Positions 6,194-61,169 of a DNA stretch of 64,000 nucleotides are shown here, in pieces. Source of the stretch: Desulfofustis sp. PB-SRB1 (GTDB taxonomy: Bacteria > Desulfobacterota > Desulfobulbia > Desulfobulbales > Desulfocapsaceae); assembly GCA_016722945.1 (NCBI GenBank), contig JAEQMT010000010.1:575765-639764 (forward strand), given 5' to 3'. Position 1 is the first letter of the stretch; the number at the start of each line of letters is the position of its first letter. The translations under genes and the position numbers were made by a program. The notes below the pieces were generated by a model. The model searched no databases, had not been told where the DNA came from, and was given only the letters and a program-made list of their open reading frames with translations.

Positions 6194-8161
6194 ATGACGA
6201 TGCTATCGCTAAAGAGGTGTTGGAGTATGAGCATGGGTGCCAAACTTGGATTGTTCGTGGGTATCGGCCTGATTTTTTCAGCCCTGGGCGCGTATGCAAG
6301 CTGTCTTGAGGGAAATTGCCGGGACGGAACCGGAGTCTATCAGAGCCCTGACGGGCGCCGTTATGAAGGAACGTTTTCACGCGGCTTCATCAACGGTGAA
6401 GGAACCATGTATTTTCCCGACGGCTCGGTGTATCGCGGCACCTTCCGCAATGGCGTCATGGAGGGCAGAGGCCTACTTGAAGGGGCCGACGGCAGACGCT
6501 ATCAGGGGGAGTTCAAAGATGGGGTAATTGATGGCCAGGGGGCGCTTGTTCTGCCGTCCGGCCTGCGTTACCGGGGCGAGTTCAGCTATGGCCAGTTTCA
6601 TGGTCAGGGAATTTTGTTATATCCCGATGGCCGGGAGTACACGGGCCAGTTCCGCAACAATATCGTCGACGGTTACGGCCGTCTCATCTTCTTGGATGGC
6701 AGCTGGTATGAGGGTGATTTTGTCAACGGCAAGCCATCGGGTAAGGGGACTCGTCTCTATCCGGATGGATCGCGCTACAGCGGTGAAATCAGTGGTGAGA
6801 TGCGACACGGTCAGGGCCACTTTGAGTCGGCCTCGGGCGATATCTACGATGGCGGCTTTGCGGCGGATTTGTACCACGGTCAAGGGACCCTTGATTACCG
6901 TGACGGCAGGCGCTATACCGGCACCTTCAAGAACGGCAGAAGAAACGGCCAGGGCGAGCTTATCTATACGGACGGGTCGCGCTACAAAGGCGGTTTCGTC
7001 GAAGATGTACCGCAGGGGGTCGGTACCCTGAAATTTGCCGATGGTAGCCGATATACGGGTGACTTTGACGATGGCCGAATGCATGGCCAGGGAGAGTACT
7101 GGTACGCTGATGGTGCATATTACAAGGGGGATTTTGTTGACGGGTTGCCAAACGGCTATGGTGAATTGCGTTATGGTGATGGTGAAATCTTCACCGGCGC
7201 CTTTATTGACGGTGAGCCGCAGATAGTGGAAAGCGTCGATATTTTTGCTGAGGCATCGGTGGCGGCGACTGCGGAGGGTGATGAAGAAGATATGACTGGT
7301 ACCGGCTCTAAAATCGTGGCTGTGGATATGGGCAGCGATCTCGATAGCTCTACCGTTGAACCAGTTGATAGCTCCGGCGCTGCAGCTGATATGGCCGTTG
7401 CCGCTTCTGGGGCAGGTGATGAGATGGCTCTTACTCCGGTTGACGGCGGTGCCGTCCCGACGACGGCGTCGGTTGAAACCGCGCAGACGCCTGCTTCAGA
7501 AATCGTTACGGAACAGGTATTGCTGATCACCGGTGATGCCGTTATTGAACGCGATGCAGTCTTATATGTTAGTAGTGATCCAGAGCGTCCGCTGAGTGGT
7601 ACGGTTGATTATATATTTGCCGATGGCTCCCACTATCGGGGCGAGGTACGGGAGGGGCTATTCGAAGGCGACGGCATTATTGAGTTCTCCGGCGGCGACA
7701 GTTATGAAGGAGAGTTTGGCGGCGGCGTATTCAATGGCCGGGGAACGTATCGCTATGCTGACGGCAGAAGCTATGAAGGGGAATATGTTGCCGGCAGACG
7801 TAACGGCTCCGGCCGTTATGCCTATCCTGACGGAACAACCTACACCGGCGAGTTCAAGGATGATTTTTTTCACGGCAGCGGCGTCTACCTTTTTGCCGAC
7901 GGCAGCCGCTACACCGGACAGTTCCGCGGCGGTACGTTTAATGGCCGGGGAAGATTGGAATATCAAAACGGTGCGGTCTATACCGGCAATTTCAAGGATG
8001 ATCTGCCCCATGGTGAAGGAGTTCTCATCGGCGCCGATGGATCACGCTATGACGGTTTATTTTCCGCCGGCAGAAGAGATGGCGAGGGCATTCTGATTTT
8101 ACCGGACGGCAATCGCTACGAAGGGCTCTTTGTCAATGACACCTTTGTCGGCGCCCAGTAA
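6194..8161 (+). CDS. Exported MORN-repeat protein (21 repeats of 23 residues)
   Basis: A 655-residue protein built almost wholly of MORN repeats with an exact 23-residue (69-base) period. Thirteen repeats run from residue 57 to about 345 (the last partial), then an Ala/Asp/Glu/Ser/Thr-rich linker to residue 480, then eight repeats from 481 to the end. Each unit reads roughly YxGxFxxGxxxGxGxxxxxDGSR. A hydrophobic stretch at residues 18-36 ending AYAS looks like a Sec signal, so the protein is probably periplasmic or surface-exposed. An ATG at 6227 with GAGGTG upstream is an alternative start. MORN repeats form rigid beta-solenoids that bind lipids or proteins; the role here is unknown. It follows avtA by nine bases. 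Confidence 0.9.
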   Translation: MTMLSLKRCWSMSMGAKLGLFVGIGLIFSALGAYASCLEGNCRDGTGVYQSPDGRRYEGTFSRGFINGEGTMYFPDGSVYRGTFRNGVMEGRGLLEGADGRRYQGEFKDGVIDGQGALVLPSGLRYRGEFSYGQFHGQGILLYPDGREYTGQFRNNIVDGYGRLIFLDGSWYEGDFVNGKPSGKGTRLYPDGSRYSGEISGEMRHGQGHFESASGDIYDGGFAADLYHGQGTLDYRDGRRYTGTFKNGRRNGQGELIYTDGSRYKGGFVEDVPQGVGTLKFADGSRYTGDFDDGRMHGQGEYWYADGAYYKGDFVDGLPNGYGELRYGDGEIFTGAFIDGEPQIVESVDIFAEASVAATAEGDEEDMTGTGSKIVAVDMGSDLDSSTVEPVDSSGAAADMAVAASGAGDEMALTPVDGGAVPTTASVETAQTPASEIVTEQVLLITGDAVIERDAVLYVSSDPERPLSGTVDYIFADGSHYRGEVREGLFEGDGIIEFSGGDSYEGEFGGGVFNGRGTYRYADGRSYEGEYVAGRRNGSGRYAYPDGTTYTGEFKDDFFHGSGVYLFADGSRYTGQFRGGTFNGRGRLEYQNGAVYTGNFKDDLPHGEGVLIGADGSRYDGLFSAGRRDGEGILILPDGNRYEGLFVNDTFVGAQ

Positions 8162-8208
8162 TTTTTCATGGCATACTATATATAGGGTAGTTGGGGGACA
8201 TCATAATT

Positions 8209-8358: not shown

Positions 8359-8802
8359 ATGGCTATGAAATGGGGATATAAGGCGGTTCATTTTGAAATG
8401 AAAAAAGGTGGGCTGATCGGCAGCGCCTTTTTCGATGAATCTGAGATAGAGGAAGCGCTCAATAATTTCGGCGCCGCCGGCTGGGAACTGATTTCCGTAC
8501 TGGAGGTGCACGACGGGGTTATCGCTTTTTTCAAACAGCCCCTTGCCGTAGGCGAAATGGCCCCGCATGTTCATGTTCGGCCCCCGGTTGCCCACCAGCC
8601 TGAAGATGAATTGCCGGATCGGGATCAGCCACCCATTGCTCATCTAACCCAGGATGAACCGCCAGCGCCGGTATCGACACCTTCGAGAGCCGCACCACAT
8701 CCCCATCTTGATTTAAATGAGGTGAATAAGGCGGCGGAAGAAAACCCGGGTGGTGAGGATTCCGGTGAGGACGAACGGGTAGGTGCAATCAGGATCGAGT
8801 AG
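8359..8802 (+). CDS. DUF4177 domain protein with Pro/Glu-rich tail
   Basis: A 147-residue small protein. Residues 1-60 (MAMKWGYKAVHFEMKK..., GAAGWELISVLEVHDG, IAFFKQPL) match the DUF4177 pattern, a short alpha-beta domain of unknown function. The C-terminal half is rich in Pro, Glu, Asp and His and looks disordered. It ends four bases before the ligase gene, so it is probably co-transcribed with ybdK-like and ggt. No signal peptide or membrane segment is seen. Confidence 0.78.
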   Translation: MAMKWGYKAVHFEMKKGGLIGSAFFDESEIEEALNNFGAAGWELISVLEVHDGVIAFFKQPLAVGEMAPHVHVRPPVAHQPEDELPDRDQPPIAHLTQDEPPAPVSTPSRAAPHPHLDLNEVNKAAEENPGGEDSGEDERVGAIRIE

Positions 8803-11675: not shown

Positions 11676-13883
11676 TCATCCAAAACCCAGCGCCATGCCC
11701 AGTTGATATACCGCCACTGCCAGGGCGAAGGCGAAGATGGTGTTGAAGCCCATGGAAAAGGCGGCCCAGCGCCATGAGGATTCGCGGGCGATGCAGACCA
11801 CGGTGACGAAACAGGGGGCATAGAACATGATAAAGATAAGCGCCGCCACCGCCACCACCGGATTCCAGGAGGGTGAGCGGGTCAGCCGGTGGCTGAGCGA
11901 GGCCGCCGCTTCGGGATTCGTATCGCCCATGGAATAGGCGGTGCCAAGGGTAGAGACGATTACCTCTTTGGCGACAAAACCGCCCAGCAGGGCGATGTTG
12001 GTACGCCAGTCAAAACCAGCCCAGGAGGAGATCGACTCCAGTCCGTGGCCGATACGCCCAGCTACTGAATAGCGCAGGGCCTGGGCCGACTGCTCCTGAT
12101 CAAGCCGCCTGAGCTCTTCGGCAAGGAGGCTGTGGTTATCGGTCTTTGAGATGGGGTCGAGCAACGATAGTTCCTGGCTGATTGACGCTTTTTGCTGGGC
12201 AAAGTAGCGCTGCTGTTCTTCGGGCAGATGGGGATAGGTCATCAATGCCCAGAGCAGGATTGAAATGGCCAGGATGACCGTGCCCGCCTTTTTGATGTAT
12301 TGCCAGGTGCGCTCCCAGGTGTGGATAAGCAGTCCGCGAGTGGTGGGAAATCGATACGGTGGCAACTCCATGACAAAGGGAGTCGGCTCGCCGCGCAGAA
12401 AGGTCGTTCTTAAAAATTTTGCCGCCACCAGTGCGACAACCCATGCCAGCATGGTGAAACCAAACATCATCAAGGCCTGATGGTTGGCGAAAAAGGCGCC
12501 GATCAGCAGGGCCAGCACCGGAATCTTGGCGCCACAATTCATGAAAGGCACGGTGAGCAGGGTAGCCATCCGTTCTTTGGGCGAGCGCAGGGTTCTGGTG
12601 GCCATGACGCCGGGCACCGCGCAGCCCCCGGCAATACCGCCGGAGACGATAAAGGGCATGACCGAGGAGCCGTGCAGGCCAAATATGCGAAAGATGCGAT
12701 CCATCATATAGGCCACCCGGGCGAGGTAGCCCGAATCCTCCAGCAGGGCAATGCCGAAAAACATGAACATGATGAGCGGCACAAAACCCAGAACCCCGCC
12801 CACCCCGTCGATGACCCCCGATATGATAAGTGACTTGAGCGGCCCGTCAGCCATGGCGCCATCCACCATCTCCCCCAGCCAGACAAACAATTCTCCCATC
12901 CAGGCAACCGGCATGCTGCTCCAGGAAAAGGTGAACTGATAGAGGAAATAGAGCACCGCCAGCATGATTGCCGGCCCGCCGATCCGGTGGGTGGCGATCT
13001 TGTCGATTCGATCCGAGGCGTAGAGCCGATCCGGGGCGGCGGTGTGGGTGATAATCCCACCTCTGAGCAGGGACTTGAGATAGCCGTAGCGATGATCGGC
13101 GACAATCACCTCCGGGTAGACATCAAGAGTTTTGTGGGTATGTGCCGCCAGGTTTTCCACCACACTCTCGAGCATCCGGGCAATATCTGGATTCTTATCG
13201 CGCCCGAGGGCGAGGATCTGCTCATCCTGCTCGAGATATTTTACGGCAGTGAATTGAGCCGGATAGCGATCGGTGAGAAATTCATGTTCCTCGATAACCC
13301 TCGTCAGTTCGATGATGGCGCCGTCAAGGTCATCACCATAGGAAATGGTGAGCGGTTTCCATTCAGGCGGATTACGAGCCACCTTTATGGCAGCCTGCAT
13401 GAGTATGTCGGTTCCGGTGCCCGCCCTGGCAACAATGGGGATTATCGGTACGCCGAGAATCTCAGATAGCTTCTCGGTATCGATTTTGATCCCGCGTGAT
13501 GTCGCCACATCGATCATGTTTAAGGCGATGACCAGGGGCGCCCCCAGTTCAAGAAGCTGAACGCTCAGATAGAGGTTGCGCTCCAGGTTGGCGGCATCGA
13601 CGATGTTGATGACAACCGCCGGCCGCTCGTTAACGAGAAAATCTCGAGCCACCAGTTCCTCGGCCGAGTAGGCGGTGAGTGAATAGGTACCGGGCAGATC
13701 CACCACCGCGATAAGCTCGTCGTCCACCCGCAGATAACCGCTTTTGCGTTCAACCGTGATACCGGGGTAATTGCCGACGTGCTGCCTGGCGCCGGTAAGT
13801 TGATTGAACAGGGTTGTTTTGCCCGCGTTAGGGTTACCGGCAAGGGCAATGGTATGGGATATATCGTTACGCTGCACGCTCAT
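11676..13883 (-). CDS. feoB: Ferrous iron transport protein FeoB
   Basis: A 735-residue FeoB. The N-terminal G domain has [16 protein letters not shown] (G1, residues 16-31), DLPGTYSL (G3) and ALNMIDVA (G4). The C-terminal half has two Gate segments, [17 protein letters not shown] and ..[16 protein letters not shown], and about ten membrane spans including [19 protein letters not shown]. It imports Fe2+ across the inner membrane. The ATG at 13883 ([19 protein letters not shown]) is preferred over a frame extension to 13931. It lies downstream of feoA and the Cys-rich peptide gene. The 224-base gap to the convergent ggt end holds no recognisable feature. Confidence 0.97.
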
Positions 13884-13948
13884 CGGCCGACAGGTGGATG
13901 CAAGGAGAACACGGCCGGCACCGCCGAGCAAAAAGCTGCCATCGAGAG

Positions 13949-14187: not shown

Positions 14188-14481
14188 TTATTCCGTTACC
14201 ACAATATTATCCGAGGTGCACCGATCAAGTGAAATTGTCCCGCCATGTACCCTGATCAGGCAGGTGTCGCCGCGAGCGGGGCAGAGCAACTCGATCTCGC
14301 TGCCCGGATAGACACCCATAGAAGCAAGACGGGCACAATGGGTGCGATTGCCGTTTATTTCGCATACCCGCATGGGGCCGCGGCCATTCTTCTCGCTCAG
14401 CCGTGCTTTACGACACGACATACCCTTATTGCCGGCACCACTGCGGCGACCGTTGCATCTCTTTGCAAAAAACTGTTTCAT
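14188..14481 (-). CDS. feoA: Ferrous iron transport protein FeoA
   Basis: A 97-residue FeoA with an SH3-like fold: GPMRVCEINGNRTHCARLASMGVYPGSEIELL and GDTCLIRVHGGTISLDR, ending in NIVVTE. FeoA supports FeoB function at the membrane. The first 30 residues are basic and Cys-containing (KRCNGRRSG, MSCRKARL) and longer than in minimal FeoA. It is first of the feoA-small peptide-feoB run on the minus strand. No clear Fur box was found in the upstream sequence by eye. Confidence 0.93.
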   Translation of the reverse strand: MKQFFAKRCNGRRSGAGNKGMSCRKARLSEKNGRGPMRVCEINGNRTHCARLASMGVYPGSEIELLCPARGDTCLIRVHGGTISLDRCTSDNIVVTE

Positions 14482-14672
14482 AGTTCAATGGTATGTATTT
14501 ACAGTGGTTTAGTACAGGGTGTTGCGGATTCTGTCAAGATATTTGTCAATAAGGCGTAACAAGATTAAGGACAACTAACTTAGACGGGCTATAAAATCAT
14601 ACACTGCAGCACTTGCTTTTTGCGAGTCGATCAAATTTATCTTATTGAATATCCGCCGATATTTTTAATTCT

Positions 14673-14688
14673 ATACTATATATTGTGT
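14673..14688 (+). promoter_or_regulatory. NrdR box 1 upstream of nrdJ
   Basis: The 16-mer ATACTATATATTGTGT matches the palindromic NrdR-box consensus acaCwAtATaTwGkgt at 15 of 16 positions. NrdR represses ribonucleotide reductase genes, and the NrdR gene itself is present at 60702. The box sits 140 bases upstream of the nrdJ start, overlapping a likely promoter. Confidence 0.8.
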
Positions 14689-14703
14689 TTTTCGGTTGTT
14701 CGA

Positions 14704-14719
14704 TCAATAAATATGGTGT
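14704..14719 (+). promoter_or_regulatory. NrdR box 2 upstream of nrdJ
   Basis: The 16-mer TCAATAAATATGGTGT matches the NrdR-box consensus at 12 of 16 positions. It begins exactly 31 bases after box 1, three helical turns, the spacing known for tandem NrdR boxes. The weaker match alone would not convince, but the phasing supports it. Confidence 0.68.
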
Positions 14720-14828
14720 AGAGGCACCGGTGAAATGGAAAGGCCGGGAAGGCCGGCTTACCCGGTTCCCGGAAGTTCGTTGATATTCCCGACTACAGAC
14801 CAAACACAACGTTAAGGGAGCGATACTC

Positions 14829-17003
14829 ATGCTTGTCGATAGTGCCATTCAGGTGTTGACCGAGACCGCGGAAACGGTGTTGCAGCGACGCTATTACCTA
14901 AAGGATGCGGAAGGTAATCCGATCGAGGACTGGTACCAACTATGCCGCCGGGTTGCTGATGCGGTTGCCCTGGGTGAAAACAAGCCGAAGAATCACCAGG
15001 AGTTACGAGAGCGTTTTTTTGAGCTGCTCTATCATCTCGACTTTCTGCCTAATTCGCCCTGTCTGATGAATGCCGGCACCAATCTCGGCCAGCTTTCCGC
15101 CTGCTTTGTCCTGCCCATCGAAGATTCCATGGACGGCATTTTTTCGGCGGTACGCAACGGCGCCCTGGTTCATAAAACCGGCGGCGGCACCGGCTATGCC
15201 TTTTCGCGGCTGCGTGCCAAAGATGCCTCGGTCCAGTCCACCCAGGGCGTAGCGTCCGGCCCATTGTCCTTTGCGGCGGTGTTTGATGCCGCCACCGAGA
15301 CCATTAAGCAGGGGGGTAAGCGGCGTGGGGCAAATATGGGGGTATTGCGCATTGATCATCCCGATATCCTCGATTTTATCACCTCCAAACAGGATCAGAA
15401 CCAGTTCAACAACTTCAATTTCAGCGTCGCCATTACCGACGCCTTTATGGAGGCGGTTGAGCACGATACCGAATATGATCTGGTTGAGCCCTCTACCAAG
15501 ATTGTAAGGCGCTCGCTCAAGGCCCGCGAAGTATTTGAGATGATCGTCGACCTGGCATGGCTTAACGGTGAACCGGGCGTGCTCTTCATCGATGCGGCCA
15601 ACCGGGACAACCCAACCCCGCAGCTGGGCAATTTTGAGGCCACCAACCCGTGCGGTGAGCAGTGGCTGCTGCCGTATGAGAGCTGTAATCTCGGCTCAAT
15701 TAATCTTGGTAATTTTGTCGTTGACCAGAAAATCGACTATGAACGGCTGGCGCAGACCGTCCATACCGCCACCGTTTTTCTTGATCGGGTCATCGACTGC
15801 AATCGTTTCCCGATCCCCGAGATTGGTCACATGACCTTGAAAACGCGCAAGATCGGTCTGGGCATCATGGGCTTGCATGACATGCTTATAGGGCTTGAAA
15901 TTCCCTACGGCAGCGATGAAGGTCGGCAGACGGCGGCGGAGGTGATGCGTTTCATCAGGCGCGAGGCCGAGGTCGAATCCATTCGTCTGGCCGAGACCCT
16001 TGGCCCTTTTCCCGCCTTTGATCCATTAATCAATACCTACCCGGCCCGGCGCAACGCCGCGCTGACCTCGATACAACCCACCGGCACGGTATCGATGATT
16101 GCCGATTGCGCCTCCGGCTGTGAGCCCTACTTCTCCATTGTCATGATCAAACATGTCATGGACGGTGATCGTCTCATGCTGGTGAACAAACATTTTGAAA
16201 AAGTTGCCGTGCGCGAAGGGTTTTATTCAGAGGAGTTGATGGCAAAGGTTGCCGACAGCGGTACGGTCATCGGCCATGCTGAAATTCCCGAGAAATGGCA
16301 GGAGATATTTCGCACCGCCCAGGACATCAGCCCCGAAGATCATATTAAAATGCAGGGCATTCTCCAGCAAAACGGGGTAGACAGCTCCATTTCAAAAACC
16401 ATCAACCTGCCTTCCGGCGCCAGTCGCGAGGACGTCAAGCTTGCCTACCTGCAGGGATATAAGCTGGGATGCAAGGGGCTCACCGTCTATCGTGACGGTT
16501 CACGCGATGCCCAGGTGCTCAACACCAAGGCGCGTTCGGAGGCGGACAAGGGCGAACCCATGGCGGTGGTAAGCGCCAACGGTAAACGCAAACTGCCCGA
16601 TGTGCTGAGTGCCAAGCGGTACCGGTTGAAAGATCAGGACCAGAAGTCGGTCTACATCATCGTCTGTTTTGGTGAAGACGAGCAGCCCATGGAGGTTTTT
16701 GCCAAATTTCCCTTTGATAACCGGCTCGATCTCAAGGACAAATCTACCATGTGGACCACCACCTGCCGACTCGTCTCCCTGGCCCTCAGATTTAACGTGC
16801 CGATCGGTGAAATTATCAAACAGCTTGATCGCTCCAGCGGTCACATGCAGGATTTGCCCTCACAACTGAGTAAATTGTTCAAATCCTTCATGGCAGGCAC
16901 CCACCACGGATTTTCCAGCGTCTGTCCGGAGTGTTCCGGCCAGCTGGTATTTGAAGAGGGGTGCGAGACGTGCCGGGCGTGTGGCTACTCCAAGTGCGGG
17001 TAG
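14829..17003 (+). CDS. nrdJ: Vitamin B12-dependent ribonucleoside-diphosphate reductase, class II (NrdJ)
   Basis: A 724-residue adenosylcobalamin-dependent ribonucleotide reductase, which makes deoxynucleotides with or without oxygen. LPNSPCLMNAG, the HKTGGGTGYAFSRLR loop and the active-site FEATNPCGEQWLLPYES (Cys275 as thiyl radical site, Glu277) are clear. QPTGTVSMIADCASG is also typical. The C-terminal tail ends with CPECSGQLVF...CRACGYSKCG, the Cys-rich swinging arm that re-reduces the active site. The preceding AAGGGAGCG is a good ribosome site. Expression is probably repressed by NrdR through the tandem boxes upstream. No class I or III reductase gene is in the window. Confidence 0.96.
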   Translation: MLVDSAIQVLTETAETVLQRRYYLKDAEGNPIEDWYQLCRRVADAVALGENKPKNHQELRERFFELLYHLDFLPNSPCLMNAGTNLGQLSACFVLPIEDSMDGIFSAVRNGALVHKTGGGTGYAFSRLRAKDASVQSTQGVASGPLSFAAVFDAATETIKQGGKRRGANMGVLRIDHPDILDFITSKQDQNQFNNFNFSVAITDAFMEAVEHDTEYDLVEPSTKIVRRSLKAREVFEMIVDLAWLNGEPGVLFIDAANRDNPTPQLGNFEATNPCGEQWLLPYESCNLGSINLGNFVVDQKIDYERLAQTVHTATVFLDRVIDCNRFPIPEIGHMTLKTRKIGLGIMGLHDMLIGLEIPYGSDEGRQTAAEVMRFIRREAEVESIRLAETLGPFPAFDPLINTYPARRNAALTSIQPTGTVSMIADCASGCEPYFSIVMIKHVMDGDRLMLVNKHFEKVAVREGFYSEELMAKVADSGTVIGHAEIPEKWQEIFRTAQDISPEDHIKMQGILQQNGVDSSISKTINLPSGASREDVKLAYLQGYKLGCKGLTVYRDGSRDAQVLNTKARSEADKGEPMAVVSANGKRKLPDVLSAKRYRLKDQDQKSVYIIVCFGEDEQPMEVFAKFPFDNRLDLKDKSTMWTTTCRLVSLALRFNVPIGEIIKQLDRSSGHMQDLPSQLSKLFKSFMAGTHHGFSSVCPECSGQLVFEEGCETCRACGYSKCG

Positions 17004-60166: not shown

Positions 60167-60603
60167 GCGATTCATTAACAAAAATCGCAATCGGCAGCGA
60201 TCATGGCGGCTTTAATCTGAAGCTGGAAATTATAGAAATTCTGCGGGAGAAGGGATACTCTATCATTGATTGTGGATGTGTTTCGACGGAGTCGGTGGAC
60301 TACCCTGATGTTGCTGTAAACGTTCGCGAGGCTGTGGTCTCGGGCCAGGCTGCGCGGGCTATTCTCATCTGTGGAACCGGTATCGGGATGGCTATGGCGG
60401 TGAACCGTGATGTTCGTATCCGTGCCGCTCTGTGCCACGATGAGTATACGGCGCGGATGAGTCGGGCCCATAACAACGCCAATGTGCTGTGTCTGGGCGG
60501 GCGGGTCATCGGTTCCGGGGTTTGTCGGGCAATCGTTGAAACCTGGCTGCAAACGGAATTTGACGGAGGTCGACATCTAAAGCGGATTGCCAAATTTTCC
60601 TGA
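60163..60603 (+). CDS. rpiB: Ribose-5-phosphate isomerase B
   Basis: A 146-residue RpiB that interconverts ribose 5-phosphate and ribulose 5-phosphate. IAIGSDHGGFNLK, DCGCVSTESVDYPD and ILICGTGIGMAMAVN (catalytic Cys) are conserved. The GTG start overlaps the fabF stop. In relatives glyA often follows rpiB; here a terminator and nrdR follow. Confidence 0.95.
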   Translation: MSDSLTKIAIGSDHGGFNLKLEIIEILREKGYSIIDCGCVSTESVDYPDVAVNVREAVVSGQAARAILICGTGIGMAMAVNRDVRIRAALCHDEYTARMSRAHNNANVLCLGGRVIGSGVCRAIVETWLQTEFDGGRHLKRIAKFS

Positions 60604-60625
60604 GCCAGACCACAGAACATTTTCC

Positions 60626-60658
60626 AACCGGCGAAATCACACGATGTCGCCGGTTTTT
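60626..60658 (+). terminator. Rho-independent terminator after rpiB
   Basis: aaccggcga (60626-60634) pairs with tcgccggtt (60647-60655) over nine bases around a 12-base loop, followed by tttt. It lies 23 bases past the rpiB stop and should end the fab-rpiB transcript before nrdR. Confidence 0.8.
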
Positions 60659-60701
60659 CTATTACGTGCTCAGCTGAAAATCCTGAACAGGGGAGAGACC
60701 C

Positions 60702-61169
60702 ATGAAATGCCCGTACTGTAATACTATTGATAACAAGGTTATCGATTCCCGGCTCAACAAGGAAAGTACCATAACAAGAAGAAGGCGTCATTGTCTGGCC
60801 TGTGATCAGCGCTTTACCACCTATGAGCGGCTTGAAGTGATGATGCCCATGCTTGTCAAAAAAGATGGCAGAAGAGAGCCATGGGACCGCCAGAAGATGG
60901 TTGTCGGGCTTGAAAAAGCATGTGAAAAGAGGCCCATCAGTAGAGATGCCATTGACCAGTTCGTTGACGAAATAGAGCATCAGTTACAGGACAGCGGGAC
61001 TAAGGAGGTTTTCACCTCAACCATCGGAGAGTGGGTGATGGAGCGACTTTCCACCGTTGACGAAGTGGCCTATGTTCGTTTCGCTTCGGTGTATCGACAA
61101 TTCAAGGATGTCAACGAATTTATGGATGAGCTGAAGCTATTGCTCGATGCACGAGAAAAGGAAGCATAG
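60702..61169 (+). CDS. nrdR: Transcriptional repressor NrdR
   Basis: A 155-residue NrdR. The zinc ribbon MKCPYCNTIDNKVIDSR...CLACDQRFTTYER contacts DNA, and an ATP-cone follows from about residue 46 (VMMPMLVKKDGRREPWDRQK) that senses ATP/dATP. It represses ribonucleotide reductase genes. Tandem NrdR boxes precede nrdJ in this same window. AGGGGAGAGACC is the ribosome site. ribD follows 24 bases later. Confidence 0.97.
   Translation: MKCPYCNTIDNKVIDSRLNKESTITRRRRHCLACDQRFTTYERLEVMMPMLVKKDGRREPWDRQKMVVGLEKACEKRPISRDAIDQFVDEIEHQLQDSGTKEVFTSTIGEWVMERLSTVDEVAYVRFASVYRQFKDVNEFMDELKLLLDAREKEA

Follow-up and report, generated by a model that had tools for sequence, protein, structure and literature searches.

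The question raised by this locus is what controls nrdJ in Desulfofustis sp. PB-SRB1 and whether that control stops at the reductase. In the window (the whole 64,000-nucleotide stretch of DNA analyzed here) an earlier note had placed two 16-mers before nrdJ that resemble NrdR boxes, matching 15 and 12 of 16 consensus positions and starting 31 bases apart, and we found them exactly so. It is very probable that positions 14673-14719 form an NrdR operator that would repress nrdJ, the sole reductase found, when dATP rises. The observation in the note is thus correct, and an operator of this sort is expected; the new part is an NrdR-like tandem site at mraZ, the first gene of the division/cell-wall cluster.

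A Tandem NrdR-Type Operator Before nrdJ

14673..14688, + strand: NrdR box 1, ATACTATATATTGTGT; 15/16 to the consensus ACACWATATATWGTGT; 20.9 bits (matrix without the window)
14704..14719, + strand: NrdR box 2, TCAATAAATATGGTGT; 12/16 to the consensus; 14.2 bits (matrix without the window)
14829..17003, + strand: nrdJ, adenosylcobalamin-dependent (class II) ribonucleotide reductase; TIGR02504 707 bits, cut-off 399.95; Pfam

Matches were counted against ACACWATATATWGTGT, which we take to be the NrdR-box consensus. C4 and G13 of the box are GC pairs contacted by NrdR. Box 1 keeps both and is nearer to the consensus in the window than in relatives; box 2 keeps G13 and has an A at position 4, where C4 is absent in 27 of 34 relatives too. 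Single boxes with at most three mismatches occur 43 times in the whole genome vs. 48 times for a reversed control pattern, so that a box taken by itself is no more frequent in the genome than chance would give. A sequence-only model of the tandem site was built, without the window, on 34 aligned nrdJ sites of relatives, which were chosen because the pair was visible. Among the 150 of 507 first-look candidates that were scored, the nrdJ pair is the only strong match of this model in the 4.69-Mb genome (E = 2.4e-7; next best 0.187), and the model run on the window gave E = 3.3e-9. The earlier note had suggested a scan with an NrdR-box matrix. With a matrix from the 34 loci, window excluded, the nrdJ pair ranks first in the 464 kb of genome sampled, at 35.1 bits.

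Two further NrdR-like pairs in this sample, of 25.2 bits (C1:39146; L267:19146) and 21.1 bits (C1:54807; L268:14807), belong to a repeat: both lie in intergenic copies of a 262-bp element that are 86% identical. The pair before mraZ ranks third. Elsewhere in the window, a strong single NrdR-like box of 18.8 bits, ATACTATATATAGGGT, lies at 8173-8188 between a gene with MORN-type repeats (6194-8161) and an ORF at 8359, and no partner box was found for it. The 16-mer TTACTCTATGTAGTGT is present four times in the genome (C1:893940, C2:54081, C48:6518, C51:3590) and is probably part of a repeat.

The boxes in the 34 nrdJ loci start 31 bases apart in 22 cases and 32 in 12. Scored with the nrdJ-box matrix, 46 of 51 nrdJ upstream regions contain a pair of at least 15 bits; outside the training rows this holds for 12 of 17, three of the 12 being copies of training rows and one the window itself. 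The five regions below 15 bits are L018, L050, L052, L053 and L061, the last only 122 bp long. NrdR is present in the genomes of L050, L052 and L053 (G023, G007 and G035, respectively). Together, the sequence comparisons support an NrdR-type tandem operator before nrdJ that is conserved across the family.

The Regulator and the Reductase Complement

60702..61169, + strand: nrdR; Zn-ribbon and ATP-cone; TIGR00244 196.8 bits, cut-off 124.65; PF22811, PF03477
17013..17558, + strand: SEC-C motif protein, 9 bp after nrdJ

The gene for the regulator is present at position 60702, where it had been noted. Its product keeps D15, R17, R26-29 and R37, which are named as NrdR DNA contacts, and has a lysine at position 12, where an arginine is given (PMC9110341). 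As far as its sequence can tell, this NrdR looks genuine. NrdR is present in 34 of 36 relatives and missing in 12 of 148 genomes. That nrdR shares the window with nrdJ amounts to neighborhood and not to linkage, as it lies 44 kb downstream and has no box directly before it. Autoregulation of nrdR was rejected: no box was seen by eye in 60560-60701, and the highest score among 208 tiles from 30 nrdR loci is 8.3 bits. In several relatives (G001, G005, G012, G014, G016, G020, G021) nrdJ and nrdR are on one contig, some 40 to 95 kb apart. Since this resembles the distance in the window, the loose neighborhood seems old.

Apart from nrdJ, no reductase was found; the genome is rated 97.6% complete, so that another could be missing. 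The class I small subunit was absent in 24 of 24 genomes including that of the window, with control families detected; NrdD was not found in the window genome and is present in 10 of the 24. Since a search of NrdJ for an ATP-cone gave no match, NrdR is the only ATP-cone control of the reductase found here. Only one reductase and one NrdR were found, and NrdJ shows no ATP-cone, which makes this lineage a clean case in which ATP-cone dATP feedback would act only via transcription. The SEC-C gene is probably in the same operon as nrdJ. It is present in 44 of 55 nrdJ loci examined, and its product is perhaps linked to reductase function.

The earlier note had also reported that no B12 riboswitch is visible at nrdJ and took this to suggest that NrdR is the main input. 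The observation itself was borne out: across the window no match to any Rfam family passed the gathering score, and a scan of 14480-14900 at E up to 10 gave three matches, none of them a cobalamin riboswitch. RF00174 has no match in the window and two elsewhere in the genome (C39, C46), one of which stands, by eye, before a FecCD-type permease. B12 elements of delta-proteobacteria are reported before the B12-independent nrdDG and not before nrdJ (PMC545781), so that their absence at nrdJ is expected. The proposed consequence does not follow, and the absence of the riboswitch says nothing on the strength of NrdR control.

NrdR-Like Pairs Upstream of mraZ

C47:172973 and 173004 (172973-173019), other contig than nrdJ: NrdR-like pair before mraZ in the window genome; AAGGCACCTGTAGTGC (weak) and CCACCATATATTGTAT (strong), 22.4 bits

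Within the order Desulfobulbales, 34 relatives have mraZ, of which 30 were taken as loci, and the 450 bp upstream of mraZ were scored with the matrix from the nrdJ boxes only. Pairs of at least 15 bits were found in 18 of the 30 regions, window genome included, and pairs of at least 20 bits in 15. None of 353 control tiles reached 15 bits (0 of 145 from the same mraZ loci, 0 of 208 from nrdR loci), the highest being 14.4. The best pair beats all 200 shuffles in 19 of the 30 loci. The tandem model built on nrdJ also matches before mraZ in G001 (E = 4.4e-5), G018 (0.047), G019 (0.024) and G026 (0.030). We conclude that the NrdR-like tandem site at mraZ is a statistically firm sequence feature.

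In the mraZ alignment, the pair is followed by CTTGACA and TATAAA; next come GTGG repeats, presumably MraZ's own sites, and finally mraZ. Box 2 lies 53-55 bp from the mraZ -35 in 13 of the 18 pairs, the others lying at 12, 46, 51, 60 and 60 bp; the pair of the window genome is 53 bp upstream of TTGACA. When the regions were anchored on the -35, 16 of 29 loci scored at least 10 bits at this offset, compared to 0 or 1 at twelve other offsets. This fixed place upstream of the promoter suggests contact with the polymerase or another factor and not simple occlusion.

The ligand of these pairs is likely NrdR. They could instead belong to another, palindrome-binding regulator of mraZ, a reading to which their place would lend itself, as they are not over the promoter as at nrdJ (see section "The nrdJ Promoter and Its Surroundings"). 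The matrix that finds them was nonetheless derived from nrdJ boxes alone, and the pairs prefer its spacing (32 in 10 loci, 31 in 9, 30 in 5, every other at most 2). The half-sites are often weak, for example 3.8 + 17.5 bits in the window genome, and 12 of the 30 mraZ upstream regions stay below 15 bits, among them loci with a single good box as well as loci that have no good box; both points fit a different regulator, but column-permuted matrices reach 15 bits in only 0.19 of 30 loci on average and in at most 8 (100 permutations). Furthermore, G175, a genome outside the order, has pairs upstream of two genes, one NrdD-like (24.5 bits) and the other mraZ (22.6 bits), which supports reading both as NrdR sites. 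The four scored genomes without NrdR have no mraZ pair, although they are too few to weigh much. We therefore place another regulator on the unlikely side and continue with NrdR as the probable ligand.

Breadth and Other Candidate Targets

For the phylum, 140 genomes had an mraZ match, of which 130 were scored, three (G000, which is the window genome, G026 and G035) were in the order set and seven were left out. Eleven of the 130 mraZ regions reach at least 15 bits, including 4 of 4 in one family and 2 of 2 in a second; the four members sampled here from the window's order all stay below. The mraZ pair is thus common in the order and patchy outside it, as judged from these scores.

The list of weak hits gave two leads. 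In G175, smc is preceded by an NrdR-like pair of 21.9 bits (L300:1500-1546), and in G102 a pair of 26.2 bits (L298:1496-1543) precedes the gene for topoisomerase VI subunit B or its divergent neighbor. Both genes may be further NrdR targets in single genomes. parA was rejected as a target: the model matches a ParA-like gene in G102 and G152, but the tandem scores are only 6.2 and 8.7 bits, and none of 29 ParA loci of relatives reached 10 bits.

The nrdJ Promoter and Its Surroundings

14696..14701, + strand: -35-like TTGTTC between the boxes, where relatives have TTGAGN; consensus match only
14719..14724, + strand: TAGAGG, a poor -10, at the position where relatives have theirs; comparison with 28 loci of the same layout
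14720..14828, + strand: probable nrdJ 5' leader; start site taken from relatives
14188..14481, - strand: feoA, divergent neighbor, with feoB at 11676-13931

In the relatives, a -35 TTG lies between the boxes and box 2 falls inside the 17-bp promoter spacer, while a TATNNN -10 starts on the last base of box 2 in 27 of the 28 loci of the main layout. This sigma70-like layout is the expected one for occlusion by a bound repressor. With promoter weights that we assumed, the window's own TTGTTC-17-TAGAGG scores 2.1 and the corresponding sites of several relatives about 8 to 9; no good sigma70 promoter overlapping the window's boxes was found. The nrdJ start site is therefore uncertain and we infer occlusion at this locus from the relatives.

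The decayed -10 could also mean that the boxes are NrdR sites whose promoter has moved upstream, for instance to TAAAAT at 14592, with NrdR acting as a roadblock or the site decaying. The upstream side of nrdJ has indeed been rearranged, as feoAB adjoins it only in this genome, and a candidate AGGACA-18-TAAAAT is present at 14568-14597. This candidate is however at chance level (1 found, 0.9 expected), and decay of the site sits badly with a box 1 that is closer to consensus than that of relatives. We regard a moved promoter as rather improbable and retain the layout of the relatives for the window.

The leader offers little else. The region 14700-14832 is not unusually structured (folding z -0.24), and an RNA element was rejected, as neither Rfam scans (at gathering and at permissive cut-offs) nor folding pointed to one. 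The leader alignment rows listed share no conserved sequence from the boxes to the nrdJ start.

It is highly improbable that the boxes serve the divergent feoAB. In favor of this reading, feoA does begin 192 bp from box 1, on its far side from nrdJ, but feoAB was found beside nrdJ in only 1 of 55 nrdJ loci while the boxes stay with nrdJ and so go with that gene. A Fur box between feoA and nrdJ was also rejected, the best candidate having only 11 of 19 matches to the consensus we assumed. Elsewhere in the window genome, C15:5000-9000 (L100) carries Type I-E CRISPR genes, with Cas1e and Cas5e above cut-offs.

Proposed Mechanism

When dATP rises, NrdR with dATP and ATP in its ATP-cone would form a tetramer that grips both boxes, about three helical turns apart. 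Bound in this way it would block access of RNA polymerase to the promoter, which lies between the boxes and overlaps them, and nrdJ would be repressed. The boxes, their spacing and conservation, NrdR, the sole reductase and the promoter overlap in relatives are read from the sequence; from these we infer NrdR binding, its dependence on dATP and the repression of nrdJ. The earlier note held that the circuit from NrdR to the class II reductase can be read from sequence, which stands for the tandem operator and for nrdR, but has to be qualified for the -10 TAGAGG and for a circuit that is probably wider and includes mraZ. In a probable extension, NrdR would also bind the pair upstream of the mraZ promoter, by which the division/cell-wall cluster would read the dNTP state. 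The probable targets of NrdR are thus nrdJ and, for many of these bacteria, the division cluster as well.

In its most complete form, the proposal is that NrdR may serve DNA supply and division alike as their common dNTP sensor in Desulfobulbales and scattered families of the phylum. High dATP would repress nrdJ by occlusion and modulate, perhaps activate, the division/cell-wall cluster from the site 53-55 bp upstream of the mraZ -35, coupling idle replication to division. We consider the chances of this full scheme to be even. Should the sites before mraZ be bound by NrdR, the division cluster would have a dNTP sensor directly on it.

Comparison With Known Systems

NrdR boxes before ribonucleotide reductase genes are textbook knowledge (PMC9110341, PMC4409342). 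Like nrdRJ of Streptomyces coelicolor and the nrd operons of E. coli and Pseudomonas aeruginosa, the locus has a reductase promoter with two 16-bp palindromes spaced by about three helical turns, and its NrdR has the Zn-ribbon, the ATP-cone and the conserved DNA-contact residues (PMC9110341). Unlike in these systems, nrdJ is here accompanied by no other reductase that we found, nrdR is distant from nrdJ and not co-transcribed with it, C4 is absent from box 2, the -10 is degraded and a further pair stands before mraZ.

NrdR regulons average 3.2 genes (PMC5343134), and the main text of that study does not mention mraZ. Among the published titles and abstract openings listed, none reports NrdR control of mraZ. 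A close parallel is topA of P. aeruginosa, for which activation by NrdR is reported (PMC4409342). Both are non-reductase genes, topA serving DNA and chromosome upkeep and mraZ being under predicted control; topA has a single box, while the sites at mraZ come in tandem and upstream of the promoter, from which their distance is fixed. As reported for topA, NrdR would perhaps activate at mraZ.

In E. coli, the division cluster (mraZ/dcw) is controlled by PdhR through its mraZ promoter (PMC3265435). The predicted arrangement resembles this in that a metabolite-sensing regulator would act at the mraZ promoter. Binding of NrdR to the mraZ sites would provide a testable molecular link of DNA precursor supply to division. 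Work on E. coli has looked for such a link in other regulators, among them PdhR. Unlike PdhR, which senses pyruvate and belongs to a different protein family, the candidate signal at mraZ here would be dATP/ATP.
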